IMG/VR virus record: IMGVR_UViG_3300032294_001228
Span: 54,685-118,684 of that record
Strand: one strand, 5' to 3'
Source: a virus
DNA: 64,000 nucleotides
Part shown: positions 21,419 through 44,745 of the stretch, piece after piece
Position numbering within the stretch: the stretch's first letter is position 1
Layout: each line of letters opens with the position of its first letter
The notes under the pieces: model-generated
What the model saw: only the letters and a program-made list of their open reading frames with translations
What the model was told of the DNA's origin: nothing
The model's database searches: none
Made by a program: the position numbers and the translations under genes

Positions 21419-22138
21419 ATGTTTCTAATTGAAGTTCTTAAAGATAAACCTCGCAAACCAGTAGCATTCTGCTATGGTCGCGTCAATCCTCCTACTATAG
21501 GTCATGCGAGACTATTTAATACTACTGCACGTGCTAGTATGGGTGGTGACTATTGGATATTCTTAAGCCATACACAAGATCCCAAGAAAAATCCCCTAGA
21601 TTACAATACCAAAGTAGATTTCGTCAAGGCCATGTTTCCACAGCATGCTGATCATGTTAGCACTGGTGGATTAAAGACTATCATGCAGATCTTAGAATTC
21701 CTATATCATCAAAATTATACAGATATAACTTACGTATGTGGTAATGATAGATTACCAACATTTACTAAACTATTAAACGATTATAATGGACTAGAAGGTA
21801 AACCCACTTATTTTAAATTTGACAGTATCAATGTGGTCAGTAGTGGCCCAAGAGACCCAGATGATGATGGTATCGCTGGTGTTAGTGCTAGTGCTGCCCG
21901 TAAAGCTGCTGTTGAAAAAGATTTTGAAAAATTTAAAGAAATTACTGGAGCAGGTCGTTACGCTAAACAACTATATCGCGCAGTACGCAAGGGTATGAAT
22001 ATATTTAATGAAGATACCAGCGGCTATATACCCAAGAATAAGAAAGAAGCCAAGGACCCACGTTGGTCAAATGCGCTTACTGTAGATGTACATCCAGATA
22101 CTCCCAACAAAAACATGAAGGCACTTGGTTTGATATAA
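21419..22138 (+). CDS. Cytidylyltransferase-like nucleotidyltransferase with head-targeting-like N-terminus
   Basis: 239 aa. 'CYGRVNPPTIGHARLF' (residues 18-33) is the HxGH-type nucleotide-binding motif (TIGH), and 'GVSASAARKAA' (about 159-169) is the ISxTxxR-like signature, so an NMN/phosphopantetheine adenylyltransferase fold. Starts 'MFLIEVLKDK', with an LIE tripeptide at 3-5 that could be a T4 gp21-type cleavage site. A late promoter precedes it. Possibly packaged in the head; substrate unknown (NMN is one candidate). Confidence 0.72.
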   Translation: MFLIEVLKDKPRKPVAFCYGRVNPPTIGHARLFNTTARASMGGDYWIFLSHTQDPKKNPLDYNTKVDFVKAMFPQHADHVSTGGLKTIMQILEFLYHQNYTDITYVCGNDRLPTFTKLLNDYNGLEGKPTYFKFDSINVVSSGPRDPDDDGIAGVSASAARKAAVEKDFEKFKEITGAGRYAKQLYRAVRKGMNIFNEDTSGYIPKNKKEAKDPRWSNALTVDVHPDTPNKNMKALGLI

Positions 22139-22147
22139 GTTTATAAA

Positions 22148-22489
22148 ATGATTGTCAAACTCTCAGTTGAAGTCCATTGCCAAAAGCTACTCGATGATGG
22201 ACCTCATCTTAAATACAAAAATCAAAAACCTAGTAGATATCGAATTTATATTGACGATGATCTTATGACCGAACGCAACTGGATATGGGATCAAAATACT
22301 TTTATATGCGAAAATCTACTAGTAGACCTCCCAACAAATTCGTCACACAATATACGAGTAGATGTTCTTAATTATAGTGATATTGTAGGATATCGAATAC
22401 AGTTAGGGCTTGGTAATCTTATCGTTGATGGTATTCAACAAGATTTTTCCAATGATCACAGAGCTCAATTATCTTTTACAATAGCATAA
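22148..22489 (+). CDS. Beta-sandwich (carbohydrate-binding-like) protein B
   Basis: 113 aa. 'YRIYIDDDLMTERNWIWD' and 'LPTNSSHNIRVDVLN' give the same strand-turn pattern as the protein at 20942, so both are probably small beta-sandwich modules. No enzymatic motif. It sits between head-protein candidates and overlaps a late box at its 3' end. Function unknown; virion decoration or glycan binding are guesses. Confidence 0.5.
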   Translation: MIVKLSVEVHCQKLLDDGPHLKYKNQKPSRYRIYIDDDLMTERNWIWDQNTFICENLLVDLPTNSSHNIRVDVLNYSDIVGYRIQLGLGNLIVDGIQQDFSNDHRAQLSFTIA

Positions 22490-22492
22490 ATA
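22485..22492 (+). promoter_or_regulatory. Late promoter box CATAAATA, leaderless
   Basis: Ends 5 nt before the ATG at 22498, so the late transcript should start at or next to the start codon. Confidence 0.5.
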
Positions 22493-22497
22493 TACAT

Positions 22498-22665
22498 ATG
22501 AAAATATACGAAATACTAGAAGATAAGAAACTTAAAGAAGATGCCAGCAGCGGGGGTACAAGTTCAGGCGCTGTGGCTACTAGCATGGGTGGTGGTGCTG
22601 GATTTGGTACTAGTATTTTTATGCGCAGAAACCCTACACCAAAAAAGAACAAGGGTAAAAAGTAA
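22498..22665 (+). CDS. Small internal head protein candidate (55 aa)
   Basis: Begins 'MKIYEILEDKKLKEDASS', close to the T4 capsid-targeting sequence form (M-K-x-Y-x-x-[F/I]-x-E), with an ILE at residues 6-8. A Gly/Ser/Ala-rich middle and a basic tail ('PTPKKNKGKK') follow. No other domain. Late box at the start codon; its stop overlaps the Dps start. A small basic peptide like this would resemble T4 internal peptides. Confidence 0.6.
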   Translation: MKIYEILEDKKLKEDASSGGTSSGAVATSMGGGAGFGTSIFMRRNPTPKKNKGKK

Positions 22666-23102
22666 TGGACAAGTTTGCTAACCAATTAAAAATCGCATTT
22701 GCTAGCCAATATGCATTTGCTATCAAGGCACAAAACTTCCACTGGAACGTAGAAGGCAGTGATTTCTATCAACTGCACAACATGTTCGAAGATATCTATA
22801 ACGAAGTATATGGAACCATTGATGCATTTGCTGAAAACATCCGCAAGATCAAATCATATACACCGGCTAGCTTATATCGCTTTTCAGCACTGTCAGCGGT
22901 AGATGATGAAACCGCTGTACTAGACCCACAAGCCATGGTACAAGAATTATTGCGTGATGCAGAAAAAATGCAGGAGATCATGAAAGTGTTATTCCAAGAA
23001 TCGGAAGCTCGCCGTGAGCACGGACTTAGCGATTTTCTAGCAGGACGTCAAGATGCATTCGCTAAACACGCTTGGTTCTTGAGATCAACAGCAAAGGTAT
23101 AA
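22665..23102 (+). CDS. dps: Dps/ferritin-like DNA protection protein
   Basis: 145 aa. 'AQNFHWNVEGSDFYQLHNMFEDIYNEVYGTIDAFAENIR' (about 22-60) is the Dps helix pair with the ferroxidase ligands: His in 'NFHWNV', His in 'QLHNMF', Asp/Glu in 'FEDIY'. Dps oxidises Fe2+ with peroxide and coats DNA. It lacks a targeting-like N-terminus, but sits between two candidate head proteins and is translationally coupled to the 55-aa one. It may protect phage DNA from oxidative damage; a packaged SOD candidate lies at 44212. Confidence 0.85.
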   Translation: MDKFANQLKIAFASQYAFAIKAQNFHWNVEGSDFYQLHNMFEDIYNEVYGTIDAFAENIRKIKSYTPASLYRFSALSAVDDETAVLDPQAMVQELLRDAEKMQEIMKVLFQESEARREHGLSDFLAGRQDAFAKHAWFLRSTAKV

Positions 23103-23103
23103 C

Positions 23104-24585
23104 ATGGATATTAAAAATTTATTAGAAAAGATTGATCAGTTCGCCGGTCAAGCAGTTGGTCAAAAGCCTGGTGATCAATGGCGTGGAAGTGATAAAGCAC
23201 CTCCAGGTAAAAAACTAGTAGGCGACAGTATCCTAAAAGATTTGTCAAAAGGCAAAACACCTAAGTCCAAAGCAGAAGAACTAGCAGAAGAATACCAAGC
23301 ATTCCTAGAAGCAGAATTCAAAGACACAGTAGATAAACGTCCAGCACGTAAAAATGCTCGTCCAAGTCGTGGTCATGCACCACAACCAGGTTATAAAACT
23401 GTCAAAGCAGACGAAAGCTACATGAGCGACAAAGATATTGAATTACAAGATTATCGTTCAATGACTAATCAAGAATTCCAAACTGCATATGGTATTAGCA
23501 AGATGGAATGGATCAATCAAAACAAAGCAATAGTCATACAAAATCCTGATCTTAAACGAGCTTTAGGATTAGAAGAAGGTTGGGAAAGCGGCCCTGAAGA
23601 ATACAAAGAACCCTATGATGATGCAGATGATGCATATGACCGTATGCGTCAAGAAAAGATTGACACAGAAGCGGAAAAGGAATGGGCTAAGTTACCTAAA
23701 GTTTCAACATATAAACTAATTGGTCGTGGTCCTAACATGGAACCAAACTATGAGTTTGGTGATGAGTTTGACTCAATGGAACAGGCACTAGAATACCGTG
23801 CTAAGATCATGAAGGATCCCGATACACCACATCCAGAACACATTGGCATTAGAACTATTACTAGAGTTGTAGACAAACAACAAACTAATGAAGCAGTTTA
23901 TACAGCACCAAGAAATCAAGAAGATTATGATGCTAAGATGACTGCATTACAAGATTTACAAATGGATCCGAATACAGCTAATGATCCAGAGTTACAAAAG
24001 AAAATCATCATCTATATGGATAATCTACAAAAGATAGCGCATCAAAAAGGTTGGGCGACTCAATCTGCAGCAGAAAGCCGTGGTCATAAAATTATTGCTA
24101 ATAAACTAAAAGATATTGAACTCAGTAAAAAACCTCCAGTAGAGGTAGATCAAAAACAGCGCAAAGCCCAGGCCCGTGCAGAGTATGCAAAATATGTGGC
24201 CAAAATGCGTAAAATTAACCCTGATTATGTGCCATTATACAAAATGGACGAAGCTGGTGCTAATAACCCTCCTCAACAAAATATTTCTGATAAAACAACT
24301 GCTACGCCTCAACAGCAACAACAGATCAAAAATGTAGCACAAGGCACACAGGCACTCAAAGCCGCAGTTGGAGCCAGTGCATCAACTGATGTATTAGCCA
24401 AAGCGATTGATTCTGCTAGCAAAGGTACTGCTATAGACGCTACCAGTGCCAAGGCTTTAGAACCAATGATGGATGTGATCAAACAAGCAGCACAAGATCC
24501 TAATCTAGCTAACCAATTTAAGTCGTTAGCTAGCCAAGCTAAAACTAGTGCTGCAAAACAGCAAACTCAACAGCAAAAATCCTAA
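23104..24585 (+). CDS. Candidate internal head protein, large and disordered
   Basis: 493 aa, begins 'MDIKNLLEKIDQFAGQAVGQ' with an LLE at 6-8. Basic N-terminal region (residues 20-60 with 'PGKKLVGDSILKDL'), acidic middle, and a Gln/Ala-rich C-terminal quarter ('PQQQQQIKNVAQ', 'AAKQQTQQQKS'). The middle (about 200-260) has an alpha/beta segment 'YKLIGRGPNMEPNYEFGDEFDSMEQALEYRAKI' and the repeat-like 'AESRGHKIIANKL'. No known enzyme. Its size, disorder and N-terminus suggest an internal core protein. Convergent with the minus-strand gene. Confidence 0.6.
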   Translation: MDIKNLLEKIDQFAGQAVGQKPGDQWRGSDKAPPGKKLVGDSILKDLSKGKTPKSKAEELAEEYQAFLEAEFKDTVDKRPARKNARPSRGHAPQPGYKTVKADESYMSDKDIELQDYRSMTNQEFQTAYGISKMEWINQNKAIVIQNPDLKRALGLEEGWESGPEEYKEPYDDADDAYDRMRQEKIDTEAEKEWAKLPKVSTYKLIGRGPNMEPNYEFGDEFDSMEQALEYRAKIMKDPDTPHPEHIGIRTITRVVDKQQTNEAVYTAPRNQEDYDAKMTALQDLQMDPNTANDPELQKKIIIYMDNLQKIAHQKGWATQSAAESRGHKIIANKLKDIELSKKPPVEVDQKQRKAQARAEYAKYVAKMRKINPDYVPLYKMDEAGANNPPQQNISDKTTATPQQQQQIKNVAQGTQALKAAVGASASTDVLAKAIDSASKGTAIDATSAKALEPMMDVIKQAAQDPNLANQFKSLASQAKTSAAKQQTQQQKS

Positions 24586-24596
24586 TAAACTGTAGA

Positions 24597-25040
24597 TTAA
24601 TCGTCGGATTCTTCATAATTTGCTATAGTATTACCTGTGGTCTGCAGATCTTTGTCTAGACGTTTAATGTAGGTTTTGGCACTAGCTAACTTATTAAACA
24701 TACGAGTTGATCTCTTGCCATCTAGATAAACACTAAATTTTTTACCATCAGTCTTGACTTCTGCATTTACAGCCTTTAGATACCCTATTTTAGCAGTATA
24801 TACTGGTGGTAGGTCTATCAATGTATCAAAACCAAGCAAAATACTACCGCCTTTTTGACCAACTTTTACTAGATTTTGTGTAAATTCTCCGCTGGTATTT
24901 GCTGTACGCATAATCAGTGCCGCAGTGCGCACATCCATAGTTTGAATGAATCCTTCCTCATCCACCCAAAAATCTACACCTTCTTCGCGACCTTGATATG
25001 GATCTGTAATTACTTCTAATAGATTCTCTAGTTGTGTCAT
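24597..25040 (-). CDS. Hypothetical protein with early promoter (minus strand)
   Basis: 147 aa. N-terminus 'MTQLENLLEVITD' also has an LLE at 7-9 but the gene is opposite to the late cluster and has a near-perfect sigma70 promoter, so head targeting is doubtful. A C-terminal segment 'KKFSVYLDGKRSTRMFNKLASAKTYIKRLDKDL' resembles a small alpha/beta domain. No family recognised. Lies between convergent and divergent late genes, hence an isolated early gene. Confidence 0.6.
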   Translation of the reverse strand: MTQLENLLEVITDPYQGREEGVDFWVDEEGFIQTMDVRTAALIMRTANTSGEFTQNLVKVGQKGGSILLGFDTLIDLPPVYTAKIGYLKAVNAEVKTDGKKFSVYLDGKRSTRMFNKLASAKTYIKRLDKDLQTTGNTIANYEESDD

Positions 25041-25106: not shown

Positions 25107-25119
25107 GACTTTTATTGTT

Positions 25120-25144: not shown

Positions 25145-25495
25145 ATGCGAATTACTGATTTATTTGAATACAATGCATGGCATGGTACTGATGATCAATG
25201 GTACAGCCAAAGCTCAGATCCTTGGTATAACGGTAACGATCAATGGCACGGTAAAGATAGCGGTAACATGATGGAAGAAGATTTTGCAGTGGCCAACATC
25301 GTAGCCACAGAAGGCACAGCAGAATTCAGCGATATTGTTACAGCCAGAGAGTTAATTGGGTCAGCAGCACGTGATCCGCAGAACGAAAAGCACAAATATT
25401 TTGAATTCCTCAAACATTTAAGAACTAAACACGGTGCAGAATATAGTACTCGTGTACATCAAAAAGCCGCAGAGCTAGCAAGACAAAAGGCATAA
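25145..25495 (+). CDS. Candidate internal head protein with Trp-rich repeats
   Basis: 116 aa, begins 'MRITDLFEYNAWHG' (LFE at 6-8). Residues 10-40 hold Trp/Asp/Asn-rich near-repeats: 'WHGTDDQWY', 'DPWYNGND', 'QWHGKDSG'. The rest is an alpha-helical, charged segment. T4-like late promoter upstream. No known family; the repeats look like a binding or folding module. It precedes the glycine-rich adhesin. Confidence 0.58.
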   Translation: MRITDLFEYNAWHGTDDQWYSQSSDPWYNGNDQWHGKDSGNMMEEDFAVANIVATEGTAEFSDIVTARELIGSAARDPQNEKHKYFEFLKHLRTKHGAEYSTRVHQKAAELARQKA

Positions 25496-28720: not shown

Positions 28721-29959
28721 ATGGAACAATACGTAGTTACAGGTATAGGCATCTACAATAGCCTTGGCAAATCAGCTGAAGAAAGTTGGCGTAACCTACT
28801 AGCAGGTCAGTCAGCAGTTGGTCAAATCTCGTGGCCTGCGGATGATCCTACATCATATCCAGCAACATACTCTAGCGTAGCTAAAACACGTATTGCTGCC
28901 CCAGCTACAAAACTCACAGAAGATGACCTACACCCAGAACATTTTGACTATGGTTGGCGACATTGGGATCCTAATACTCGTGCTTGCTTGATGAGTGTTG
29001 ATGAAGCAGTGCGTGACAGTGGACTAGCATCGAAACGTGCCGGTGTTATCATTACTACTTTTGGTAGTGGAACAAGCCTAAGATTAGATTTGTTTAATGC
29101 TATAGACAAGGGTCGCACCAAATATCCTCCACGTAAAGTATTAAATATCGGGCTAGATTTTCCTGCCGCACAGGTAGCGGCTATCTATGGATTCAGTGGT
29201 ACAAATACTGCTATGGACAGTGCCTGCACTACAGGTATAACATCAATCGATTATGCTATCACCAGTCTCAAAGCAGACCCTAACCTAGATGCAATGATAG
29301 TAGGTGGTGCAGATCATCTATGCGAACCTATTAATATATTTTGGTTCCAAAGCCTCGGCGCATTATGTCCTAGTGACAATCCCCAAGACAATCGTCCATT
29401 TGATGTTAACCGCAGTGGTTTCGTCATGGGAGAAGGTGCAGCTACTATGGTTATTGAGCCGCTAAGTAAAGCCCAAGCCCGTGGTGCTAAAATCTACGGT
29501 GCTATCCTCAGCACAAACTTATACACATTGTTTGACAGCGACACCAGTCCAGATCCCACAGGTATTGGCGCACGTACCTGTGTGCAAGGTGCACTTGATA
29601 AAGCAGGCATCACAGCCAATGATGTAGACTTTGTTAACGCTCATGCTACCAGTACACCTGTCGGTGATGAAATAGAATTTAATGCCATGGCCAGCTTAAC
29701 ACCAGGTCGCACCATGGTTAGTAATAAAGGACAAATTGGACATAGTATGAGCACTGCTGGTATAGTTGAAACTATCTATACCCTACAAGGCATGCGTGAT
29801 AGTCAAGTTCCAGGTAATGCAAACCTAATAGATCCACTAGGTCACGGTATGACTCTACCCACAGAATCAGTAGAATTAGATGTTAAATACGCTATAAAGA
29901 ATAGTTTTGGATTTGGAGGAAGAAATGCCAGCATGGTTCTCGCTAGAATGGATAGCTAG
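28721..29959 (+). CDS. fabF: 3-oxoacyl-ACP synthase (beta-ketoacyl synthase, FabF/B type)
   Basis: 412 aa, full-length KAS II size. The nucleophile Cys is in 'AMDSACTTGITSID' (near residue 169), catalytic His in 'VNAHATSTPVGDE' (about 307) and second His in 'NKGQIGHSMSTAG' (about 343). It would condense malonyl-ACP with acyl-ACP in fatty-acid elongation. First gene of a four-gene run with two desaturases and an SDR. No clear promoter was found; a weak AGGGCG SD precedes the ATG. Rare in phages. Confidence 0.92.
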   Translation: MEQYVVTGIGIYNSLGKSAEESWRNLLAGQSAVGQISWPADDPTSYPATYSSVAKTRIAAPATKLTEDDLHPEHFDYGWRHWDPNTRACLMSVDEAVRDSGLASKRAGVIITTFGSGTSLRLDLFNAIDKGRTKYPPRKVLNIGLDFPAAQVAAIYGFSGTNTAMDSACTTGITSIDYAITSLKADPNLDAMIVGGADHLCEPINIFWFQSLGALCPSDNPQDNRPFDVNRSGFVMGEGAATMVIEPLSKAQARGAKIYGAILSTNLYTLFDSDTSPDPTGIGARTCVQGALDKAGITANDVDFVNAHATSTPVGDEIEFNAMASLTPGRTMVSNKGQIGHSMSTAGIVETIYTLQGMRDSQVPGNANLIDPLGHGMTLPTESVELDVKYAIKNSFGFGGRNASMVLARMDS

Positions 29960-33868: not shown

Positions 33869-34402
33869 ATGCGATCAAACGAACTAATCAGAGCTACAGA
33901 GAACACTAAAATCTACCTAGACATGGATGGTGTTCTTGCAGACTTTTTTGCAGAATATGCCAAATTAGCAGGTGTAAAAAACTACAGAGATATTCCACCA
34001 GCCAGTGCGGACCCTACACTTAATAAGATGGTAGGCACAGATTTTTTCAGCAGATTACCAAAATTCCCCACAGCAGACAGCCTAGTAAAACTAGTATTAA
34101 AATACGTGAAATCATATGGTATATGCTCTAGTCCTTTGCGTGGTGATTTTAAAAATAGCGAACAACATAAACGTATCTGGATTAAAAATCATCTACATCC
34201 GCAACCCGCAGAAATCATCATTACCAGTCAAAAAGAACAACACGCTGTTAATGCAGATGGTAGCCCTAATATATTGATAGATGATCGCGGTGTAAATATC
34301 GTGGCTTGGCGTGCCCGAGGCGGTATTGGTATCAAGTATCAGGCCGATGAAGACAGTTTAGATGTAGTGGCACGAGGATTAGCACATGCTTTCGGACGTT
34401 AA
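33869..34402 (+). CDS. HAD-type 5'(3')-nucleotidase-like protein, candidate packaged protein
   Basis: 177 aa. 'IYLDMDGVLADFFAEY' (about 14-29) is the HAD motif I (DxDGV), 'CSSPLRGD' motif II with Ser/Thr near 88, and 'ILIDDRGVN' motif IV (about 131-139). Closest to NT5C-type nucleotidases. N-terminus 'MRSNELIRATENTK' looks like the head-targeting style but lacks a clean [L/I]xE, so packaging is uncertain. First gene of the block after the late promoter. Confidence 0.75.
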   Translation: MRSNELIRATENTKIYLDMDGVLADFFAEYAKLAGVKNYRDIPPASADPTLNKMVGTDFFSRLPKFPTADSLVKLVLKYVKSYGICSSPLRGDFKNSEQHKRIWIKNHLHPQPAEIIITSQKEQHAVNADGSPNILIDDRGVNIVAWRARGGIGIKYQADEDSLDVVARGLAHAFGR

Positions 34403-35138
34403 TTTATTTGAAGGTGGTAACGTTTTCAAGGATGCTAAAGGACAACCTTTAACTTCTCGTATCTCTCGTGAAAATGTAGTTGCTACTGTGCAATGGTTAG
34501 AACAATTAACTGGACTTAACCTACAAGATAATATGCTAGGGTCAACAGGTCGTGCTGAGACCTCAGGTGATTTGGATCTAGGGGTTGACAGTACCAAAGT
34601 TTCAAAAGATGTATTAATCAAGCAATTATTAAAACGTGGTATTAAAGCCGACGACATTAAAAAATCAGGTGATGCTGTACATGTTAAAACTCCTATCCTA
34701 GGTGATGCTAATAACGGTTTCGTACAGACAGATTTCATGTTCAGCGATAATCCCACACTACAAAGTTTTAGTCTAATGGGTGGTGCAGAAGGTAGCCAGT
34801 TTAAAGGATTACATCGTGCCATACTAATGGCTAGTATTGCCAAAGCACAGAACATGAAATGGTCACCAAAGTTTGGATTAGTTGATCGCGGCACAGATGA
34901 AGTCATCACAGCAGATCCAAAAGAGATCGCAGTGAAATTACTAGGTCAGGGTAATACCCCAAAGGATCTAACATCAGTGGAAACTATCATCAAAGCCATC
35001 AAGGATCGACCAGACTTTGAGCAATTAGTAGCAGATGCCAAAGAAAATTTCGGCCGTGACAATCTAGTATTACCAGAAAGCAGGCCTTTGCCAGGTACGG
35101 GTGCTTGGTTCCGTGCTTGGAAGAATAGGAGCATATAA
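34386..35138 (+). CDS. Nucleotidyltransferase-fold protein 1, candidate packaged protein
   Basis: 250 aa, overlaps its neighbour by 17 nt. 'LGSTGRAETSGDLDLGVD' (about 55-72) is the pol-beta GS..DLD motif and 'FVQTDFMF' supplies the third Asp (about 114). N-terminus 'MLSDVNLFEGGN' has LFE at 7-9, a T4 gp21-like site. No C-terminal regulatory or toxin-antitoxin pairing is seen nearby. The target (tRNA, nucleotide or protein) is unknown. A second protein of the same fold lies two genes on. Confidence 0.72.
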   Translation: MLSDVNLFEGGNVFKDAKGQPLTSRISRENVVATVQWLEQLTGLNLQDNMLGSTGRAETSGDLDLGVDSTKVSKDVLIKQLLKRGIKADDIKKSGDAVHVKTPILGDANNGFVQTDFMFSDNPTLQSFSLMGGAEGSQFKGLHRAILMASIAKAQNMKWSPKFGLVDRGTDEVITADPKEIAVKLLGQGNTPKDLTSVETIIKAIKDRPDFEQLVADAKENFGRDNLVLPESRPLPGTGAWFRAWKNRSI

Positions 35139-35683
35139 TGAGAGCTAAAGATTTCATAAACAAAATTGTAGAAGCAAATTTACCACAGGCTAGGGTACCT
35201 CAGAGTAAACAACCTAAACTTAAATTATCTCCGTTAATAAAAGGATTAGTTTATCATTGGTTTTTAATATATGATGGTGCACATAATTCTACTGAGCCAG
35301 AAATAGTTGCCGATCGTGCAGGATATCTACAAGATTTAAATAAAATAACTAAAGTATTAACACAGCAAGGATTTACTATACAATGGGTTGATAATCTACC
35401 AGATCTAGGAGATGGTGGAGGCGGTGAGGGAGTTTATCTCACACACGTTGCTAGTAAGCAAAGCATGGCCATTGATCAATATGATATAGAACAAGATTTT
35501 GAGAAATTTGCAGGTCCAGCGGCTAAAGCTATCTTTGGTACTCTAGAAGAAGCGACTAAAGACGCCTGCTACCATAAAGTTAAAAGCCGCTATAAAGTTT
35601 GGCCCAGTGCTTACGCAAGTGGTGCATTAGTAAGATGTCGAAAAGTAGGTGCTAAGAATTGGGGTAATAAGAGCAAAAAATGA
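35138..35683 (+). CDS. Candidate packaged protein with C-terminal VWPSAYASGAL basic module
   Basis: 181 aa, one-base overlap with the previous gene. 'MRAKDFINKIVEAN' has IVE at 10-12. Residues 30-140 form a small alpha/beta domain. The last 45 residues, 'CYHKVKSRYKVWPSAYASG' plus a basic Cys-containing tail, match a short module I recall as recurring at the ends of many phage and some giant-virus proteins. Function unknown; the basic Cys-rich end could bind nucleic acid. Confidence 0.6.
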   Translation: MRAKDFINKIVEANLPQARVPQSKQPKLKLSPLIKGLVYHWFLIYDGAHNSTEPEIVADRAGYLQDLNKITKVLTQQGFTIQWVDNLPDLGDGGGGEGVYLTHVASKQSMAIDQYDIEQDFEKFAGPAAKAIFGTLEEATKDACYHKVKSRYKVWPSAYASGALVRCRKVGAKNWGNKSKK

Positions 35684-36411
35684 AATCGATTGAATTTATC
35701 ATTGAACGCTGTTGGAAAGGCTACAAGCAGGTGGGTGGCAAGAAAAAAGGTGGCCGCATGGTTCCTAACTGCGTGCCTGTAGAAGAGTCACGTCGCGACC
35801 CTACAGAATTGTTCAAACCCGAAGACAGCGAGTTAGATGATCTGCATCACAAATACATAGCCACTTGGACTATGTTAGATCATCACATATTGGAAAAGAC
35901 CTATGCGTTCGCAGACGATGATACTGCTGAACAGTTCATTGACATGGTAAACGAATTTAGTGAAGTCATGGATCACAATGCGGTAATCACGCAGGACAAT
36001 GCAGAAGTCAAACTACAGATCACTACCAATGATGTCAAAGGCCTAACCATACTAGATTTTGAATTTGCCTTGCGTGCAGATGATGCGGCTGACACACTAG
36101 ATGGTCAATCTCAAGGTCATCCAACAAACGCTGTGAACGAAAATCTACGTGACTGGTTTGGTAAAGGCAAGCAAGGTGGTGCAGGTGGTGGAGGTTGGGA
36201 CAGATATAATACCAAAGGTGAACGCATAGGCAAGTGTGGAGATCGTAAGCCAGGTGAAGGTAAACCTAAATGCCTAAGCAAGAGCAAAGCCGCGGCACTC
36301 CGAGCTAAAGGTGGTAAGAAAGCTATCGCAGCTGCCGTAAGACGTAAACGTAGTAAAGATACAAATCCTGAACGCAAAGGTCCAGCCATAAACGTGAGCA
36401 ATAAGATATGA
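35680..36411 (+). CDS. Candidate packaged protein with basic Cys modules at both ends
   Basis: 243 aa. 'MKSIEFIIERCWKGY' (IIE at 7-9) leads into 'CWKGYKQVGGKKKGGRMVPNC', a basic Cys..Cys module. The middle (about 55-140) is acidic alpha/beta. The end is a strongly basic, Gly/Lys-rich tail with 'CGDRKPGEGKPKC' and 'KGGKKAIAAAVRRKRS'. The charge layout suggests binding to packaged DNA. ATGA overlaps both sides. Confidence 0.62.
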   Translation: MKSIEFIIERCWKGYKQVGGKKKGGRMVPNCVPVEESRRDPTELFKPEDSELDDLHHKYIATWTMLDHHILEKTYAFADDDTAEQFIDMVNEFSEVMDHNAVITQDNAEVKLQITTNDVKGLTILDFEFALRADDAADTLDGQSQGHPTNAVNENLRDWFGKGKQGGAGGGGWDRYNTKGERIGKCGDRKPGEGKPKCLSKSKAAALRAKGGKKAIAAAVRRKRSKDTNPERKGPAINVSNKI

Positions 36412-37823
36412 GAGCTAGAGACCTAACTAAAGGCAACATAGCCTATCACGATGAGCTGAATCCCCAAGTATGGAATGGTCGCGACTTACGAGTCGATGTC
36501 CGCTATAAACTATTAGAGATAGCCAAACGTTTCATTGAATATCTAGAAGTTCCCAACTTTAAATTAGAAGATGTGATCTTACGTGGTAGCTTAGTAAATT
36601 ATAACTATACTGCCTATAGTGACTTTGACTTACACATCGTCACAGACTTTAGTACACTAGACTGCGACATCACAGAAGCATTCTACATGGCTAAGAAACG
36701 TATATGGAACGATGAGCATGATATCACTATCAAAGGTCATGAAGTAGAATTATATGTAGAAAACAAGGATGCTAAGAATGTATCAGAAGGTACCTACAGC
36801 GTGTTAGATGCTCGATGGTTACGGACTCCAAAATATCAACAGCCAGATATTGACGATCGTGCTGTTAACGCTAAAGCTCGCGATCTAATGACCCAGATAA
36901 ATCGTGCTATTAAGTCTGGCAGTGTAGAAGATATCACACGCTTACAAGACAAGATCAAAACCCTGCGTCAAGGTGGATTAAATCGTGCTGGTGAGTTCTC
37001 AACAGAGAATCTAGCGTTTAAGATCATACGTAACAAAGGTTATCTAGATCGCTTGTACAAAAACAAAAACTCTAAATTTGATCAAGAACTAAGTTTAGAT
37101 GAAGATATAAAAACAAATACACTCATGGCGGCATTGATAGCAGCATTGAGCGGTACGCCAGCACAGGCAGACTATTACTGTAATCCAGAAACCACACAGG
37201 CACATCCTAATCAATCACAAAATGCTATAACAATAATGAGAGGAATCAACAACGTTAAAAATCTAGAACGTGCTGGTATGCATATAGAAGCTGTTGGTGA
37301 AGCGGCCAAACTATTTAAAAATATCAGCAAGATGCCTAACAAAGATTGTGTTGCACCTATAGTAAAAGATCAACTACCACCACTACAAGATTCTGTAAAT
37401 GAACGCAAGAAATCTAAAAAGAAACGATCAAAGCGTAGATATCCTGCGGGTGGATATTATGGATACTATTGGGGCGGACATAATGATAGCTCAGACAGTG
37501 CTGGTGATGCTGGAGGTGGTGGAGATGGCGGCGGCGAAAGCATGTACGAAAGCCAAGCGAGATTAGATCCTGAAGTAGAAGAATTCCTAGATGGATTAAC
37601 TCCAGATGATGTCGGCTATGATCTAGTAGGTGATTACATTGTCCACTATGAAGGATTTACTGATCAATGCCAAGACTCTGAAGAATATCAAAATGATCCA
37701 GAAGCAGTATTCAATGATGTATGGGGTGATTTTAAGCGTCGCATGGGTGACAAAGATCCCGTTAATTATGGCATAGTTGGCGAGCATGACTATCCTATTG
37801 TCTATAGTGTGTTTAGAAAATGA
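36408..37823 (+). CDS. Nucleotidyltransferase-fold protein 2 with internal signal-peptide-like segment
   Basis: 471 aa. NTase motif 'RGSLVNYNYTAYSDFDLHIV' (about 64-83; GS plus DFD) and third acid in 'VELYVE' (about 110-115). At about 243-261 a hydrophobic stretch 'TLMAALIAALSGTPAQADYY' looks like a signal peptide with an AQA cleavage site, followed by a domain with several Cys, then a Lys-rich and Gly-rich linker ('KKSKKKRSKRR', 'GGGGDGGGES') and an acidic C-terminal domain. N-terminus 'MRARDLTKG' lacks [L/I]xE. A fusion or two-step processed protein is likely. Confidence 0.65.
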   Translation: MRARDLTKGNIAYHDELNPQVWNGRDLRVDVRYKLLEIAKRFIEYLEVPNFKLEDVILRGSLVNYNYTAYSDFDLHIVTDFSTLDCDITEAFYMAKKRIWNDEHDITIKGHEVELYVENKDAKNVSEGTYSVLDARWLRTPKYQQPDIDDRAVNAKARDLMTQINRAIKSGSVEDITRLQDKIKTLRQGGLNRAGEFSTENLAFKIIRNKGYLDRLYKNKNSKFDQELSLDEDIKTNTLMAALIAALSGTPAQADYYCNPETTQAHPNQSQNAITIMRGINNVKNLERAGMHIEAVGEAAKLFKNISKMPNKDCVAPIVKDQLPPLQDSVNERKKSKKKRSKRRYPAGGYYGYYWGGHNDSSDSAGDAGGGGDGGGESMYESQARLDPEVEEFLDGLTPDDVGYDLVGDYIVHYEGFTDQCQDSEEYQNDPEAVFNDVWGDFKRRMGDKDPVNYGIVGEHDYPIVYSVFRK

Positions 37824-39121
37824 GAGCACGTCAGTTTATATTAGAATACAATCAACAGGCCACAGCACAACGCTTTGGTGATAAACTCTTACAGGCTGCT
37901 GTAAAAGATCCTAGTCCAGAGATTTATAACATCTATTCTTTATTAAACGATCGCAAAGAGTTCAAAGATTTTAACTTAGATCCAAATACTAAAACCAATA
38001 TCCTAATCTCAATCATGCAGGCCATTGAAGGTGCAGATCCAACTAAGAACAAAGAATACACAGTGTTCCTGGCTAAGATGTATGCCCAGGGTGGATGGGG
38101 TGCTCGTATCGAAGACTTAGAAAGTAAAGTCAAACCAGCATTAGAAAAATTCCACTTATTAAAACTTAAGAAGAAAATACCAGCACCACGTAACGATATC
38201 ATGCGTTACAGTGACCTAGCAGACTTTGTAGCGGTAATAGATGAATATCCAGATCCAGAAGAAAAGAAACAAGTAGACAAAGGCACTGCCAAAACAGTAT
38301 TTGAAAATGATGCTGTGCGCATAGTCGTTCCAGAAGATCAAAATGCCGCTTGCTATTATGGTCAAGGCACACGTTGGTGTACAGCCGCTAAGACCAGCAC
38401 CAATTACTTTAATCATTACAGCAAAGAAGGCAACTTATATATACTTCTACCTAAACAACCCAAGCACGATGGTGAGAAATATCAACTGCACTTCCCTAGT
38501 GAACAGTTCATGGATGAAAATGACTATGGTGTTGAAAATATAGTCAACTTATTAGAACACCGCTTTGGCAATTTAGTGCCATGGTTCCAAGAACACGAGC
38601 CAGCTATACGTGAGTGGGTTATGTTTGCCCGTGATGAAGATTTAAAAGAGCCCTTGATGCAGATTGGCGAAATCGTCATGGAACATGTTTGGGAAATGAT
38701 CAATGATTGGGAAATAAACGATGACTACTGGTATGAGCATCTACGCAAAGAAGGCTATGTATATCCAGAAGGACATGAAGAAGAAGGCATGATTGACTGG
38801 GACAAGGCTGCAGAGGATGACGTCGATTATCTCAACTGGAACTATGATGCCAATGATTGGTTTCTCGCAGCCAAAGAAGCTGTTGAACTAAGTCCAACTC
38901 AGGCACGTCGTGGTGCAGAAGAGGGCTACGAAGAAGAAGGTGAAATAATCACCATGGGTGAACTGGAATTAATACCGGCCTACAATGTTCGCCAGGCATT
39001 CCTCCGCAGCCGTGATGGTGATGGTGGATTAGAAGAGTGGATACACAAACGTATCGTCATGCAGAAAGATGGTGACAAGTGGGTGGCTAAATTTTATACT
39101 CCACCTAAGAAAACGACATAA
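37820..39121 (+). CDS. Candidate packaged protein with GTRWCTA motif
   Basis: 433 aa, 'MRARQFILEYNQ' (ILE at 7-9). A central motif 'YGQGTRWCTAAKTSTNYFNHYSKEGNLYILLP' (about 175-206), with invariant-looking Cys and His, resembles a domain I recall from many uncharacterised phage proteins ('GT.WCTA...F..Y...G.LY'). The C-terminal half is acidic with Trp/Asp/Glu-rich runs. The Cys and His could be catalytic or structural. No known enzyme class. Confidence 0.6.
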   Translation: MRARQFILEYNQQATAQRFGDKLLQAAVKDPSPEIYNIYSLLNDRKEFKDFNLDPNTKTNILISIMQAIEGADPTKNKEYTVFLAKMYAQGGWGARIEDLESKVKPALEKFHLLKLKKKIPAPRNDIMRYSDLADFVAVIDEYPDPEEKKQVDKGTAKTVFENDAVRIVVPEDQNAACYYGQGTRWCTAAKTSTNYFNHYSKEGNLYILLPKQPKHDGEKYQLHFPSEQFMDENDYGVENIVNLLEHRFGNLVPWFQEHEPAIREWVMFARDEDLKEPLMQIGEIVMEHVWEMINDWEINDDYWYEHLRKEGYVYPEGHEEEGMIDWDKAAEDDVDYLNWNYDANDWFLAAKEAVELSPTQARRGAEEGYEEEGEIITMGELELIPAYNVRQAFLRSRDGDGGLEEWIHKRIVMQKDGDKWVAKFYTPPKKTT

Positions 39122-39191
39122 CCCAGGACCGTTTGGTGTTATGAGGCGGCTGCTGCCTTGGAGGGATGCCTAGAGTGAGCAAAGAAAAATT
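39122..39191 (+). other. GC-rich intergenic gap
   Basis: 70 bases with locally higher GC ('GGCGGCTGCTGCCTTGGAGG') than the AT-rich surroundings. No tRNA, terminator, or gene is recognised; it ends in 'GAGTGAGCAAAGAAAAATT' before the next ATG. The composition suggests a foreign or structural RNA remnant, but nothing can be assigned. Confidence 0.3.
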
Positions 39192-39767
39192 ATGCTAACA
39201 TTAGAACTATTTGAAGACAGTCCAGATACCCCCGCAGGTAGCCGTACCAAAGATCTCAACCTTGGTAAGCTATGGTTGCTGACAGAATTAAAGCGTTTGG
39301 GCATGGATGAATTTGACACTGTGTATGTCTTGGGCAGTTGGTATGGTAGCATGGGTCCTTACTTGTTAGACAAACATATACGATTCCGTACAGCATATTT
39401 GATAGACGTCGCAGCAAAAAACACTGAATGGGTCCAGCAGATGGTTAAGAAATTAGGCATCAATGATCGCATCATTCCAGTGACTCAGGACTGCAATACC
39501 ACGGACTACAAAGGTCGTCGTATATTAGTGATCAATACCAGCTGTAATGATGTAGCTAATCAAGGATGGTTTGATCATATCCCAGCTGGCACAGTAGTAG
39601 CACTAGAAGGCCGTGATAATCAGCCCGATAATCCCACTAATACTACACAGTATCTCGACAAGTTTCATGCAGAATATCCATTAGAAGAGACCTATGTGCT
39701 AGATCAGATCCAGCTCAAGGGCTATGACGACAGTTACAATAGATTCCTCAAGATAGGTACAAAATAA
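39192..39767 (+). CDS. Methyltransferase-like Rossmann protein, candidate packaged protein
   Basis: 191 aa, 'MLTLELFEDSPD' (LFE at 6-8). 'VYVLGSWYGSMGPYLL' (about 44-59) sits where a SAM-binding motif I would be, followed by 'AYLIDVAAKNTEWVQQMVKKLG', which fits strand 2 and helix. It lacks a clear catalytic motif IV. Similar phage proteins are annotated as methyltransferase-like. Delivered with the genome it could act on host DNA, RNA or protein; this is inferred only. Confidence 0.6.
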   Translation: MLTLELFEDSPDTPAGSRTKDLNLGKLWLLTELKRLGMDEFDTVYVLGSWYGSMGPYLLDKHIRFRTAYLIDVAAKNTEWVQQMVKKLGINDRIIPVTQDCNTTDYKGRRILVINTSCNDVANQGWFDHIPAGTVVALEGRDNQPDNPTNTTQYLDKFHAEYPLEETYVLDQIQLKGYDDSYNRFLKIGTK

Positions 39768-39770
39768 ATA
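39763..39770 (+). promoter_or_regulatory. Late promoter box AATAAATA, leaderless
   Basis: Ends 6 nt before the ATG at 39777 in the pattern ATAAATACATAATATG, shared with the gene at 42069. Confidence 0.5.
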
Positions 39771-39776
39771 CATAAT

Positions 39777-42059
39777 ATGCGTTATGATCAGTTCAAAATT
39801 AACCTACTAGAAGCTATCTTAGATGAAGCGGAAATGTCGCCTAAAGCGTTCCAAGAGTTCCTAAATAGTCCTTTAGTTACGGGTATGAAGATGGGTTTTG
39901 AACTAGAAGCAGTGATACATAATGTGCGTGAATACGGCGATGACAGTGAAAATGACTACAGCTATGATGAACGTGTCTATGATATAGAAAATATCTTAGA
40001 GTTCTTCCGTGGTGGCGAAGATCCCAATGGTGATAACACTATCAATAAATTACGTAATGACTTATATGATGATTTCATGGAGTGGCAGGATGCTGAGTTT
40101 GATGACTACATGAGAACTGACGAAGCACAAACTAATTTAAAAGAACTTACTCGTGAAATACTTGATGATCGAGACTACGATGAACGTCAGATAAAACTAG
40201 CATTTACTCAAGCTGAAGAAGGTAAACCTAACGATGCCTACGTAGACGCCGAAATATCAGCGATGGAAAAAATGCGTGACGAATGGCAGGACGGTGATGG
40301 TGGTAGCTTTGAGAAATACTGCGATGTTATGGACATGAACTACATGAGTGATGTGCAGAACAAATACGAACACTATCTATATTGGCCTTATACCACCTAC
40401 AGTGACGAAGAATACTTGAACACAGAATATGTAGCAGATCAATTAAAATATGAAACAGGCATTGATGCCTATGCTAGTGACAGCTATCACGGTACTAGCC
40501 GTGCTCGTGCCCAAGAAAAAGGACAGTGGATTATCGAACCTGATTCCAGCATCTCAGCAGATGGAAGTGACGAAGGTGGCTTAGAGTTCGTCAGTCCAGC
40601 ATTAGATATCCCTGAAGCGATTAAACAGATGCAACAGGTCCTAGAGTTTATCCGTGAGTATGGGTATACTAATACATCAACTGGCCTACACATCAACATC
40701 TCAGTGCCAGACTACAATGTAGACAAATTAGACTATGTTAAACTAGCGATATTCCTTGGTGATAAGCACGTGCTAGAACAGTTTGATCGCCTGAGCAATC
40801 ACTATTGCGACGGTGCTTATAAGAAGATTGGTAATAAAGTACAACAGATGAAAGGTGATGAGCTCAAAGCTGTGATGAACAAGATGAAAGAAGGCCTAAC
40901 ATTGGCCGCAAGTAAGATCATACACACAGGCTATACTAGCAAATATACATCAATCAACACCAAAGAAGGCTATATCGAATTCCGCGGTCCGGGTGGTGAT
41001 TATCTAGATAAAGATCCACAAGAACTAGCCAATACAGCCTTGCGCATGGCTCTAGCCCTACGTATCGCTACAGATCCAGAGATGTATAAGAAAGAATATC
41101 AAAAACGCTTATACAAAGTCTTAACTGACTCTGGTGAGAAAGATGACCTAGTCAAGTTCAAAGACTACGTGGCCCGTTTCCAAACTGCTGATAAAGAAAC
41201 AAGAGGCTACATCATACAGACTATACAAGCAGAACGTGAAGCACGCAAGGCTAAGAAGAAAAAGCCAGAAGGTGAGTCACGTCCATACTGGATGGTACGC
41301 CGTCGTGGTGACACCAGTGGTGGCGGTATGGCAGTGTTTGCTGACACAGCGTTTGATGCTGTTAAAGAAGTTGCTAAGTCCTGGAATATGGATCCTATCT
41401 ACTTGGTAGCAACACCGATGGCAGATGAAAAGCCCGATGATAGCTCACAAGGCGGTGGAATAGCCACAGGTGGAGTTACAGTTGACGGCAATGCTACAGG
41501 TAATTATCAACTGGTAAACAGCAATCGCAGCGTAGATCGAAGATTAACTAATGTCGATAGAGATACAGCAGAGCGCACTGCACGTCATATGGAACAAGAA
41601 CTTGGGTTAGAAAGTGGTAGTATACACGTGATGAGAATAAACCGTGACAATCAAGCAACTACTGGTGCGGCTGGACATAATTGGCGCATCTATGATGTAA
41701 ACAATCCTGATCTATTCACTGTGGTGGCTGCGGATAGCCGCACCAATGCTGCGGATCGTTGGTCTTACGTGAATCCAGAACGTCCAGCTGACATGGTAGA
41801 TGCTGTTCCTGATGAAGGTGCTATGAAGTATGAATTTACCATAGCACAACAGGCATTTAATCCTGATTCGACAGGCGATGCAGATAGATTCATCTATCCA
41901 GCAGAGCTATATCGTCAGAGAACAGGACGTGAAATGCCCGTTCGCAGAGTATGGGCTACTAACAAAGAACAAGCTATCAGCAAAGCTCGCACATTCTTCC
42001 CAAGAGATTTTGACACTATCCCAGAAGAATGGATAAAGATCAACGTAGTAGGTATATAA
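39777..42059 (+). CDS. Amidoligase-domain protein, candidate packaged protein
   Basis: 760 aa. 'MRYDQFKINLLEAILDEAE' (LLE at 10-12). Motifs of the COOH-NH2 amidoligase family (Amidoligase_2): 'MGFELEAVI' near 39-47, 'GGLEFVSPAL' near 262-271, 'STGLHINISVP' near 299-309 and 'YIEFRGPGGDY' near 396-406. After a linker (about 480-500), a C-terminal part holds three short similar units, each with an aromatic-x-[VT] start and a helix ('YWMVRRRGDTSGGGMAVFADTAFDAVKEVAK', 'WRIYDVNNPDLFTVVAADSRTNAADRW', 'VRRVWATNKEQAISKARTFFP'). The enzyme would make amide bonds between a carboxylate and an amine. Confidence 0.65.
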   Translation: MRYDQFKINLLEAILDEAEMSPKAFQEFLNSPLVTGMKMGFELEAVIHNVREYGDDSENDYSYDERVYDIENILEFFRGGEDPNGDNTINKLRNDLYDDFMEWQDAEFDDYMRTDEAQTNLKELTREILDDRDYDERQIKLAFTQAEEGKPNDAYVDAEISAMEKMRDEWQDGDGGSFEKYCDVMDMNYMSDVQNKYEHYLYWPYTTYSDEEYLNTEYVADQLKYETGIDAYASDSYHGTSRARAQEKGQWIIEPDSSISADGSDEGGLEFVSPALDIPEAIKQMQQVLEFIREYGYTNTSTGLHINISVPDYNVDKLDYVKLAIFLGDKHVLEQFDRLSNHYCDGAYKKIGNKVQQMKGDELKAVMNKMKEGLTLAASKIIHTGYTSKYTSINTKEGYIEFRGPGGDYLDKDPQELANTALRMALALRIATDPEMYKKEYQKRLYKVLTDSGEKDDLVKFKDYVARFQTADKETRGYIIQTIQAEREARKAKKKKPEGESRPYWMVRRRGDTSGGGMAVFADTAFDAVKEVAKSWNMDPIYLVATPMADEKPDDSSQGGGIATGGVTVDGNATGNYQLVNSNRSVDRRLTNVDRDTAERTARHMEQELGLESGSIHVMRINRDNQATTGAAGHNWRIYDVNNPDLFTVVAADSRTNAADRWSYVNPERPADMVDAVPDEGAMKYEFTIAQQAFNPDSTGDADRFIYPAELYRQRTGREMPVRRVWATNKEQAISKARTFFPRDFDTIPEEWIKINVVGI

Positions 42060-42062
42060 ATA
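42055..42062 (+). promoter_or_regulatory. Late promoter box TATAAATA, leaderless
   Basis: Exact late box ending 6 nt before the ATG at 42069; it overlaps the stop codon of the amidoligase gene. Confidence 0.6.
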
Positions 42063-42068
42063 CATAAT

Positions 42069-43076
42069 ATGCTAGCACTTGAATTATTTGAAGAATTGCA
42101 AGGACCGCCAGAGCCAACCTTAATTGATGCTCTGCGTGATTTCTTGCCTATAGCAGTCAAGCATCTGAAACTAAAACATCTTCCTAAAATCAAGCTCTTA
42201 CGTGATTTAGGCACCGAACATGTGCCATCATTTGGTAAATTCAGCAATGAAGATCGCATAGTCCATGTGGATATCGAAAATCGCCATCCAAATGATGTCT
42301 TACGCACTCTAGCACATGAACTCACACACTACGCACAGGGCGAACAGAATCGTTTAGACGCTGACAGCTGGCGGACAGGTAGCACCATAGAAGATGAAGC
42401 TAACGCCGAAGCTGGCGTTATCATGCGTAAATTTAACAAAAATTTTCCGCAGTATATGGCGCTCAAACCTATAGTGTTTGAAGCAGCCGACTACGAAAGA
42501 GACATGCAGTCAGATCCAAGTGACCCAATTCCGTTTCCTCCGGGCACTACTCTAGTAAATGTTAGTGATGTATATGATTGGTATAAACTGGGTATGGCAG
42601 TTCCTGCATTAGACAAAGCTGATCCTAGAATCTTTAATAAAGGTGTACCACATACAGTATTCGCATTTGGTACTGAAGAAGAAGAACACAGACTAGCGCC
42701 GTTACTTAAACGCCTAGGATTTACTCTACACGATATCGATAAACCAGAAGATTACGAAAAAGCCATACGAGCCAGTGATGTTGTTGAACACTTAGAACAG
42801 TATGTCGCTGAAAAGTGGACTAATAAATACAAAAAGAGTATCAACTGTAGTAATCCAAAAGGTTTTAGCCAAAAGGCCCACTGTGCTGGACGTAAGAAAA
42901 AAGCCAATGAAAACTTTGCTGATGGTAAAAAGCCTGGCCGCAAAGGATTAGCTAAACGTAGTGGAGTAGATTGCAAACAGTCAGTAACAAAATTAAGAAG
43001 CATCGCTAAGAATTCAAGCGGTGAACGTCAACGCATGGCGCATTGGTGTGCTAATATGAAATCAGGGAGAAAATAA
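42069..43076 (+). CDS. Zinc metalloprotease-like protein with basic C-terminal modules, candidate packaged protein
   Basis: 335 aa. 'MLALELFEELQG' (LFE at 6-8). 'TLAHELTHYAQGEQ' gives the HExxH zinc motif at residues 83-87, and a downstream Glu in 'EDEANAEAG' (E110 or E114) fits a gluzincin third ligand. The last 100 residues hold two basic Cys modules: 'NCSNPKGFSQKAHCAGRKKK' and 'SSGERQRMAHWCANMKSGRK'. Reads as a protease joined to nucleic acid-binding tails. Leaderless late promoter. The substrate is unknown; a host protein or a packaged precursor is possible. Confidence 0.7.
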   Translation: MLALELFEELQGPPEPTLIDALRDFLPIAVKHLKLKHLPKIKLLRDLGTEHVPSFGKFSNEDRIVHVDIENRHPNDVLRTLAHELTHYAQGEQNRLDADSWRTGSTIEDEANAEAGVIMRKFNKNFPQYMALKPIVFEAADYERDMQSDPSDPIPFPPGTTLVNVSDVYDWYKLGMAVPALDKADPRIFNKGVPHTVFAFGTEEEEHRLAPLLKRLGFTLHDIDKPEDYEKAIRASDVVEHLEQYVAEKWTNKYKKSINCSNPKGFSQKAHCAGRKKKANENFADGKKPGRKGLAKRSGVDCKQSVTKLRSIAKNSSGERQRMAHWCANMKSGRK

Positions 43077-43189
43077 TGCCTTTAATGACTCTAAAATTTG
43101 TAATAAACGGTAAAGAATATACAGTGCAGGCTAATAGCCTAGTCGAAGGTGCTAAAATGGCTGAAGCATTAGCTGCAGCAGATTTATAA
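43076..43189 (+). CDS. Small conserved peptide (37 aa)
   Basis: ATG overlaps the metalloprotease stop by one base; ends TAA at 43187-43189. A beta hairpin ('LKFVINGKEYTVQANSL') followed by an Ala-rich helix. No homologue recognised. Good packing between two genes supports coding. Confidence 0.5.
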   Translation: MPLMTLKFVINGKEYTVQANSLVEGAKMAEALAAADL

Positions 43190-43207
43190 AATTAATCAGG
43201 AATTATT

Positions 43208-43780
43208 ATGAAACCAACAGAATTTTTAAATTTAACTAAAACCATTAAGTCTATAAGTGAGGATATTGATCCAGCAGACGTAGGTGAATACGACCGCGAA
43301 GGCGAAATGGCCATTGACCAGTTAGAAACTGCTGCAGAAGCGGCTAACGAATTGCGCAGTATTTTAGATGCTGATGAGAACTTGCCTGAGTGGGTACAGA
43401 AAAAAATTACTCTAGCATTAGATTATTTAGACACCAGCCGCGATTATATGAAGTCACAAGATAACGACAGTGACGAAGAAACCTACGAAGGTGATGAGTT
43501 CTATGAAGCCTATGGTATCATGTGCGAAAACCTAGAAGAAGCAGAATACCGCGGACGCAAAGTTCCGTTAGGTAAACCAATGCAGGGGGATGTAAAAAAG
43601 TTCAAAGTATACGTTAAAGATCCTAAAACAGGCAACGTTAAAAAAGTAAACTTTGGCGATCCTAACATGCGCATTAAGAAATCAAATCCAGCACGCAGAA
43701 AATCATTCCGTGCTCGCCATAACTGCGATAATCCAGGACCGCGCACTAAAGCACGTTACTGGTCATGCCGTAAGTGGTAA
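43208..43780 (+). CDS. Candidate packaged protein with C-terminal CDNPGPRTKARYWSC module
   Basis: 190 aa. 'MKPTEFLNLTKTIKSISED' with ISE at 16-18. The N-terminal two-thirds is acidic and helical (16-120). The C-terminus is strongly basic, 'KKSNPARRKSFRARHNCDNPGPRTKARYWSCRKW', a Cys/His motif that I recall as recurring in T4-like aquatic phages, and which looks like a small zinc or DNA-binding unit. SD AGGAATT. Confidence 0.62.
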   Translation: MKPTEFLNLTKTIKSISEDIDPADVGEYDREGEMAIDQLETAAEAANELRSILDADENLPEWVQKKITLALDYLDTSRDYMKSQDNDSDEETYEGDEFYEAYGIMCENLEEAEYRGRKVPLGKPMQGDVKKFKVYVKDPKTGNVKKVNFGDPNMRIKKSNPARRKSFRARHNCDNPGPRTKARYWSCRKW

Positions 43781-43781
43781 T

Positions 43782-44210
43782 ATGAGAGAACTAATCACTC
43801 TAATAGAAGCAGTAAGTCGTGGTTGTCCAGTAGCAACTGCGGATATCCATGTCAATTTAAAAAACAGACAGCATGCCATTGATGAATATCATTATGGTCC
43901 TGCTAATCCAGATAAGCCAGAAGACTATTGGAAAAAATCTGCTAAAATATTTAACGTTAAAGAAGCCACTGCCAAGACCATGTTATGTGGTAACTGTGCG
44001 GCGTTTGATGTATCTGACAGTATGCGCGATTGTATCGCCAAGGGCATACAAGGCGACGAGAAAAACATAGATGCCAATGCCACTATTAATCTAAGCGACC
44101 TAGGCTATTGTAACTTCCTACACTTTAAATGTGCTGGTGAACGTAGTTGTTCTGCTTGGGTCACAGGTGGTCCTATTACAGAAAAAGACAAAGGTAAAAA
44201 AGCGGATTAA
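43782..44210 (+). CDS. Cysteine-rich conserved phage protein, candidate packaged protein
   Basis: 142 aa from the ATG at 43782, one base after the upstream stop. 'MRELITLIEAVSRGC' (LIE at 7-9). Cysteines in 'LCGNCAAFDVSDSMRDC' and 'LGYCNFLHFKCAGERSCSAW' suggest a four-Cys metal or iron-sulfur site. This pattern resembles a hypothetical protein common in T4-like cyanophages. Function unknown; could be a redox protein beside the SOD gene that follows. Confidence 0.62.
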   Translation: MRELITLIEAVSRGCPVATADIHVNLKNRQHAIDEYHYGPANPDKPEDYWKKSAKIFNVKEATAKTMLCGNCAAFDVSDSMRDCIAKGIQGDEKNIDANATINLSDLGYCNFLHFKCAGERSCSAWVTGGPITEKDKGKKAD

Positions 44211-44211
44211 T

Positions 44212-44745
44212 ATGAGAGCTTGTGAATTTTTAACTGAAAGTGAAGAAAAATTAGAGTTGGCCAAATTACCTTACTCTAGGACTGCTCTTGCCCCAGTTAT
44301 GAGTAAAAATACCATAGATAATCATTATGGTAAATTAGCCAAAGGATATGTTGATCGTTATAACAAGGGCGAAGGAGATGCCACATTCAATGCCGCTGGT
44401 GCTTACTTACATAATCTGTTCTTTCCACAGCTACGTGCGCCAAGATCAAGTAACAAACCAACAGGGCTAGTTAAAACTCTAATAGAACGCAAGTTTAAAA
44501 CTTTTGATAAATTTAAAGAAGAAATTGAAGAAAAGGCCATGAAGTTACAGGGTAGTCATTGGATTTATCTTAGTAAGACAGGTACTATTAAAACTATTCC
44601 CAATCATCAAAAACGTCATGACATTGCCTTGCTAATAGACTGGTGGGAACATGCGTGGGCATTAGACTACGGTACTGATAAGAAGAAATACCTGTCTAAT
44701 ATCTGGCGTATTATTAACTGGGATATTGTTAATCAACGTCTATGA
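44212..44745 (+). CDS. sodB: Fe/Mn superoxide dismutase with head-targeting-like N-terminus
   Basis: 177 aa from the ATG at 44212, one base after the upstream stop. 'MRACEFLTESEE' (LTE at 7-9). After that, 'LPYSRTALAPVMSKNTIDNHYGKLAKGYV' and 'DWWEHAWALDYGTDKKKYLSNIWRIINWDIVNQRL' are clear SodA/SodB signatures. Metal ligands H38, H67, D143 and H147 are present, and gateway Tyr is Y46. H30 of E. coli SodB is replaced by Leu. A loop of about 18 residues between the first two ligands is missing. It dismutates superoxide. Confidence 0.88.
   Translation: MRACEFLTESEEKLELAKLPYSRTALAPVMSKNTIDNHYGKLAKGYVDRYNKGEGDATFNAAGAYLHNLFFPQLRAPRSSNKPTGLVKTLIERKFKTFDKFKEEIEEKAMKLQGSHWIYLSKTGTIKTIPNHQKRHDIALLIDWWEHAWALDYGTDKKKYLSNIWRIINWDIVNQRL

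Follow-up and report, generated by a model that had tools for sequence, protein, structure and literature searches.

A probable island of T4-type tagged, head-targeted proteins in a large T4-like phage

Results

Genes at the locus

The window analysed here is a stretch of 64,000 nucleotides, bases 54685-118684 of the linear, 118,684-base virus record IMGVR_UViG_3300032294_001228. Two blocks of genes in it encode proteins most of which begin with a short peptide (the tag) ending in [LI]xE, similar to the capsid-targeting sequences of T4 internal proteins. The original prediction, made from the sequence of this stretch, held that about 15 unrelated proteins carry such an N-terminus and are packaged in the phage head and injected.

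The DNA polymerase of the window is T4-like and nearest to those of the jumbo phages Phosso and Atu_ph07; judged by sequence comparison of this enzyme, and by the gp23 and gp21 of near relatives, the phage is a large T4-like member of the T4 superfamily. A phiKZ-type reading was rejected, because the near relatives have gp23 and gp21. The record is probably a fragment. Among the near relatives are the viral contigs G002 and G001 (the superoxide dismutase of G002 is 84% identical to that of the window). Where we write "freshwater", the label comes from related phages and the literature, not from the record. The genes and features are as follows; the marks on homologues in phage PA5oct, made by electrospray ionisation tandem mass spectrometry (ESI-MS/MS), are discussed below.

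21419..22138, +: cytidylyltransferase-like, N-terminus MFLIEVLKD, weak tag
22498..22665, +: 55-residue protein, MKIYEILED; TAAATA 5 nucleotides (nt) before the ATG
22665-23102: Dps/ferritin-like (Pfam Ferritin), untagged, amid tagged genes
23104..24585, +: 493-residue protein, MDIKNLLEK; no PHROG match, Pfam match sub-threshold only
24597..25040, - (opposite strand): 147-residue protein, tag-like MTQLENLLEV, conserved in G002
25145..25495, +: 116-residue protein, MRITDLFEYN; G002 counterpart MLVKDLFEYD
33869..34402, +: NT5C-like nucleotidase, untagged, left edge of the island; TAAATA 6 nt upstream
34386..35138, +: nucleotidyltransferase-like (motif by eye), L[F/L]E followed by GGN; PA5oct homologue marked
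35138..35683, +: MRAKDFINKIVE followed by AN; basic C-terminal module phrog_727
35680..36411, +: MKSIEFIIE; pterin-4a-carbinolamine dehydratase domain and basic modules
36408..37823, +: phrog_36119 protein, nucleotidyltransferase-like motif; MRARDLTKGN, without [LI]xE
37820..39121, +: 433-residue protein, MRARQFILE followed by YN, tag conserved 10/10; PA5oct homologue marked
39100..39191, +: conserved structured leader before an exchangeable cargo slot
39192..39767, +: 191-residue protein, MLTLELFED; methyltransferase-like in the original prediction only
39777..42059, +: Amidoligase_2 protein, MRYDQFKINLLE followed by A; TAAATA 6 nt upstream
42069..43076, +: HELTH metalloprotease-like (weak M78 match), MLALELFEE; TAAATA 6 nt upstream
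43208..43780, +: MKPTEFLNLTKTIKSISE followed by D; basic/Cys C-terminal module
43782..44210, +: Cys-rich protein, MRELITLIE followed by AV
44212..44745, +: Fe/Mn superoxide dismutase, extra N-terminus MRACEFLTE followed by S; PA5oct homologue marked

The motif at the N-termini

All 14 proteins listed in the original prediction start where it placed them, and all 14 have [LI]xE near the N-terminus (scored with E at residue 5-18) compared with 21 of 142 other genes, although a P value for this list would be circular because its members were picked by the motif. When the contiguous block 33869-44742 is defined by position only, the motif is found in 10 of 13 genes and in 20 of 136 elsewhere (Fisher P = 5e-6); it is thus indeed commoner here than in other genes. 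We also permuted residues 2-20 within each N-terminus, keeping the composition. For the 20 genes of the two blocks 5.5 motifs are expected and 15 observed, a number that none of 5000 shuffles reached, while the other 136 genes show no excess (20 observed, 18.3 expected).

The starts of 43782 and 44212 sit inside longer TTG/GTG frames, but for both the ATG used here is conserved among relatives. The tag of 21419 is a weak case; its G002 orthologue reads MFLTELFEQ. The figure of about 15 unrelated proteins is a slight overstatement: 35680, 42069 and 43208 have basic/Cys-rich modules in common, so that "unrelated" is too strong for these few. Small modules of this kind (phrog_727, phrog_7595 and, in a relative, DUF6321) stand at the C-termini of 35138, 35680, 42069 and 43208; some are shared among these proteins and occur in cyanophages too.

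The superoxide dismutase and the position of the tag

The protein at 44212 is an Fe/Mn superoxide dismutase (SOD) by Pfam (Sod_Fe_N/C), by alignment and by its PDB profile match, with H38, H67, D143 and H147 as the four metal ligands expected of the family. In viral relatives the SOD propeptides drift in length and sequence around a retained motif: [LI]xE is present in 46 of 47 unique SOD propeptides of viral contigs (22 expected), and in an alignment of 11 sequences E9 is the sole invariant residue ahead of the SOD domain in the first 13 positions.

Solved SODs align to the window SOD from about residue 15 onward, and in its AlphaFold model the predicted local distance difference test (pLDDT) score is below 50 only at residues 1-11. 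In the model of 37820 it is below 50 at residues 1-10, the longest such stretch, and in three short loops. For these two proteins, the models and the PDB alignment of the SOD place the tag as an extra piece outside the predicted folded body. A PDB fold search with 37820 gave nothing significant; a viral library returned mostly uncharacterised proteins, plus one PA5oct "structural protein".

Islands in related phages and exchange of cargo

In syntenic islands of other viral contigs (set mainly by synteny, window excluded) the motif occurs in 58 of 96 unique N-termini compared with 12 of 65 downstream (P = 8e-8), and its stricter T4-like form in 38 of 96 compared with 2 of 65 (P = 1.5e-8); the events counted are not fully independent of each other, because a simple gene caller supplied the starts, only N-termini with identical first 12 residues were collapsed as redundant, and the left edge was set by distance in most contigs. 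The consensus tag of the islands, M[RK]AxEF[LI]xE[SA], resembles MKTYQEFIAE of T4, and starts of this kind, such as MKNFHQFITE and MISFDQFLSE, are also seen in the freshwater cyanophages S-SRM01 and S-CRM01.

The conserved leader of about 90 nt (window 39100-39191; L151-L160) has a hairpin with some compensatory changes and matched no Rfam family. Contig by contig, the slot behind it holds the 39192 family or a protein of 133, 332, 146 or 388 residues, and these bodies are without clear similarity to each other. The same leader is found once before the amidoligase gene and once before an unrelated gene (MKTVICHFYNEEYLLPWW, L153). Tags vary against bodies as well: the propeptide type MR[ED]L[IL]T[LI]xE is on the Cys-rich 43782 in the window and on SOD in other viral contigs, and relatives of 42069 keep the body with a swapped tag (MNLYEMFE, MNLFEMFDTE).

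Two further tagged proteins may be mentioned here. One, from a relative (L089:3977-4576, MRAKDFIKE), has a sigma-70 region 4 domain (Pfam E 9e-15) and is by its sequence a candidate injected transcription factor. The other (L009:10536-11528, 331 residues) carries a second tag, MRANEFISE, in its interior, which looks like a fusion of two cargos.

Late-type promoter sites

TAAATA late-type sites, recognised from the sequence only, lie upstream of 22498, 25145, 33869, 39777 and 42069. The spacing of such sites to the ATG falls into two main classes, about 15-24 nt and 4-7 nt, the latter with 8, 8 and 13 genes in G000, G002 and G001. With 4-7 nt there is hardly space for a ribosome site, which suggests that the late mRNAs of this class may be leaderless.

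Protease and capsid sites, and comparison with T4

Homologues of gp21 and gp23 are present in G002, G001, Atu_ph07, MIJ3 and Vibrio 2.275. Five gp23-type capsid proteins of relatives close their N-terminal region with L[MAV]E followed by [STN]A, and the gp21 homologues have [IV]xE ahead of the conserved fold. As a control, 119 genes were called in 90 kb of the T4 record NC_000866.4. The strict motif selects six of them, gp21, gp22, gp24, gp2, inh and gp61.1, and the first five are head-associated. The sixth, a hypothetical protein (18966-19130, L144), starts with MKTFKEFIKED, like a capsid-targeting sequence.

T4 IPI reads MKTFKEFTSTTTPVSTITE followed by A, the same layout as MKPTEFLNLTKTIKSISE followed by D in 43208. 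The tetrapeptide FLTE is common to T4 gp23 (followed by A) and the window SOD (followed by S); in T4, IPI and gp23 are cleaved after these residues, FLTE being the gp23 site.

Virion data from PA5oct

For the jumbo phage PA5oct, GenBank notes mark the proteins found by ESI-MS/MS. Among those marked are the homologues of the SOD (EST35_0261), of 37820 (EST35_0205) and of 34386 (153120-153833), whereas the cytidylyltransferase homologue is untagged and unmarked. These marks support virion association of the homologues weakly to moderately. In the literature on PA5oct and MIJ3 we found no mention of a virion SOD. A proteomic study of Atu_ph07 reports 131 virion proteins.

Discussion

We consider it probable that the block is a cargo island of head-targeted, protease-trimmed proteins, probably delivered with the DNA. 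The block, the shuffles, the SOD propeptides and the relatives all point to a tag at the N-terminus, about 10-19 residues long, with [LI]xE at its end. Late-type genes would each encode a protein with a tag of 8-19 residues, which would, like the capsid-targeting sequences of T4, dock the cargo on the core of the assembling prohead. A gp21-type prohead protease would then remove the tag after [LI]xE, and the freed cargo (SOD, amidoligase, metalloprotease-like, nucleotidyltransferase-like and basic/Cys-rich proteins) would stay loose in the head and probably enter the cell together with the DNA. Phages would exchange cargo genes around a constant tag or leader.

The steps are not equally firm. 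Of what the original prediction proposed, T4-type head targeting has fared well: motif statistics, retention in relatives and cargo exchange behind a constant leader support it, as do the matching sites in the gp21 and gp23 of near relatives and the detection of three homologues in PA5oct virions, and we regard it as likely. Trimming after [LI]xE is likely too, and injection into the bacterium is plausible by analogy with T4. Very probably, the internal-protein strategy of T4 is here elaborated on a wide scale. Evenly balanced, in our judgement, is the more ambitious reading as a whole, that freshwater T4-like jumbo phages have a payload island of exchangeable cassettes with a universal head-loading tag, by which enzymes (SOD, amidoligase, protease-like, nucleotidyltransferase-like, plus the sigma-70 region 4 protein of a relative) are delivered at infection.

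The stricter F-I-x-E rule does not reach significance on the window contig alone (4 compared with 2.1 expected, P = 0.14), and a related strict rule is decisive only once relatives are added. Several observations weigh against a cargo island. Three genes of the block, 33869, 36408 and 44742, are without the motif, and a search for gp21 and gp23 across the whole record found neither. In PA5oct, the homologue of 34386 has no clear [LI]xE, and the marked list is permissive, since ribonucleotide reductase, thymidylate synthase and ligase are on it; about 13 of 31 PA5oct homologues outside the block are marked too. Generic [LI]xE is not enriched among the marked proteins (18 of 93 compared with 51 of 193 unmarked) and was rejected as a predictor of PA5oct virion membership.

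Potentially, the tag could be real and the tagged proteins could be prohead core or assembly factors that remain in the capsid, with no injected payload. True core proteins near the portal do have like N-termini (in G002, a 74-residue protein with MNLFEILE and a 308-residue protein with MNKYEQLVEFIINDE), and MKINDIITEG of PA5oct counts in the same direction. On the other hand, several cargos resemble metabolic or redox enzymes, have no obvious scaffold role and vary among phages, and we hold this explanation to be unlikely.

Still less probable, and in our view rather remote, is that the shared N-terminus is some other signal, with only an accidental resemblance to the T4 tag: it might direct binding to another phage structure, act as a degron or belong to the start of translation. 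Such a signal would account for 36408, which retains the MRA[RK]D start yet is without [LI]xE, and for the several starts 4-7 nt from TAAATA, where early codons could be constrained. However, it is the E of [LI]xE that is conserved, the F-[IL]-x-E spacing matches T4, FLTE also stands at the T4 gp23 site, and relatives have matching protease-type sites. Chance together with selective reading of Glu-rich N-termini is strongly disfavoured and hardly credible, for although about 12% of internal windows contain [LI]xE by itself and the strict rule fails on the window contig, the independent islands, the shuffles and the SOD propeptides all speak against it.

Like T4 IPI, IPII and IPIII, the proteins of the island combine a short N-terminal tag and [LI]xE with unrelated bodies that have only the leader in common, and their genes are variable. 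The differences are that the island tags are mostly EF[LI]xE, one residue shorter, that enzymes or large proteins make up many of the bodies, and that about ten tagged genes stand in one island. T4 Alt, an ADP-ribosyltransferase, is a head-packaged, tagged and injected enzyme. Its tag looks like the ELFxE-type tags (MLALELFEE, MFLTELFEQ); unlike the case of Alt, neither Pfam nor PHROGs found an ADP-ribosyltransferase in the island.

The T4 tags, their role and their cleavage by gp21 have been reviewed (PMC9026906). T4 Ip1-3 have only the N-terminal leader in common and block different host restriction enzymes, and in related phages internal proteins of this kind number at least 10 (PMC12373910). 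Leader-only sharing among unrelated internal proteins is therefore not new; the novelty lies in the enzyme cargo and in the breadth. The idea of a head that carries many kinds of protein is familiar, too, from polyvalent proteins and P1 DarA/Ddr (PMC5512222). These are multidomain proteins, whereas the island has mostly single cargos with a common tag: Pfam recognises no more than one enzyme domain in any protein, and PHROGs add function-unknown modules only. The ejection proteins of SPN3US and phiKZ (PMC5694885) are comparable in that a large phage has many head proteins, some of them protease-processed, but the relatives of the window phage have T4-type gp23 and gp21. In the open-access literature we found no paper on an island of such tagged enzymes in large phages of the T4 type.

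If the cargo island is real, proteins injected before any phage gene is expressed, a superoxide dismutase and a sigma-like protein among them, could be predicted from their N-termini, and phage-injected effectors could be listed directly from sequence via the tag. Many function-unknown phage proteins would then become testable as first-minute effectors.

Apart from the tagged genes, window 28721-31455 holds, as judged by eye, a possible lipid-modifying cluster, in which a beta-ketoacyl-synthase-like gene precedes two genes for desaturase-like membrane proteins.

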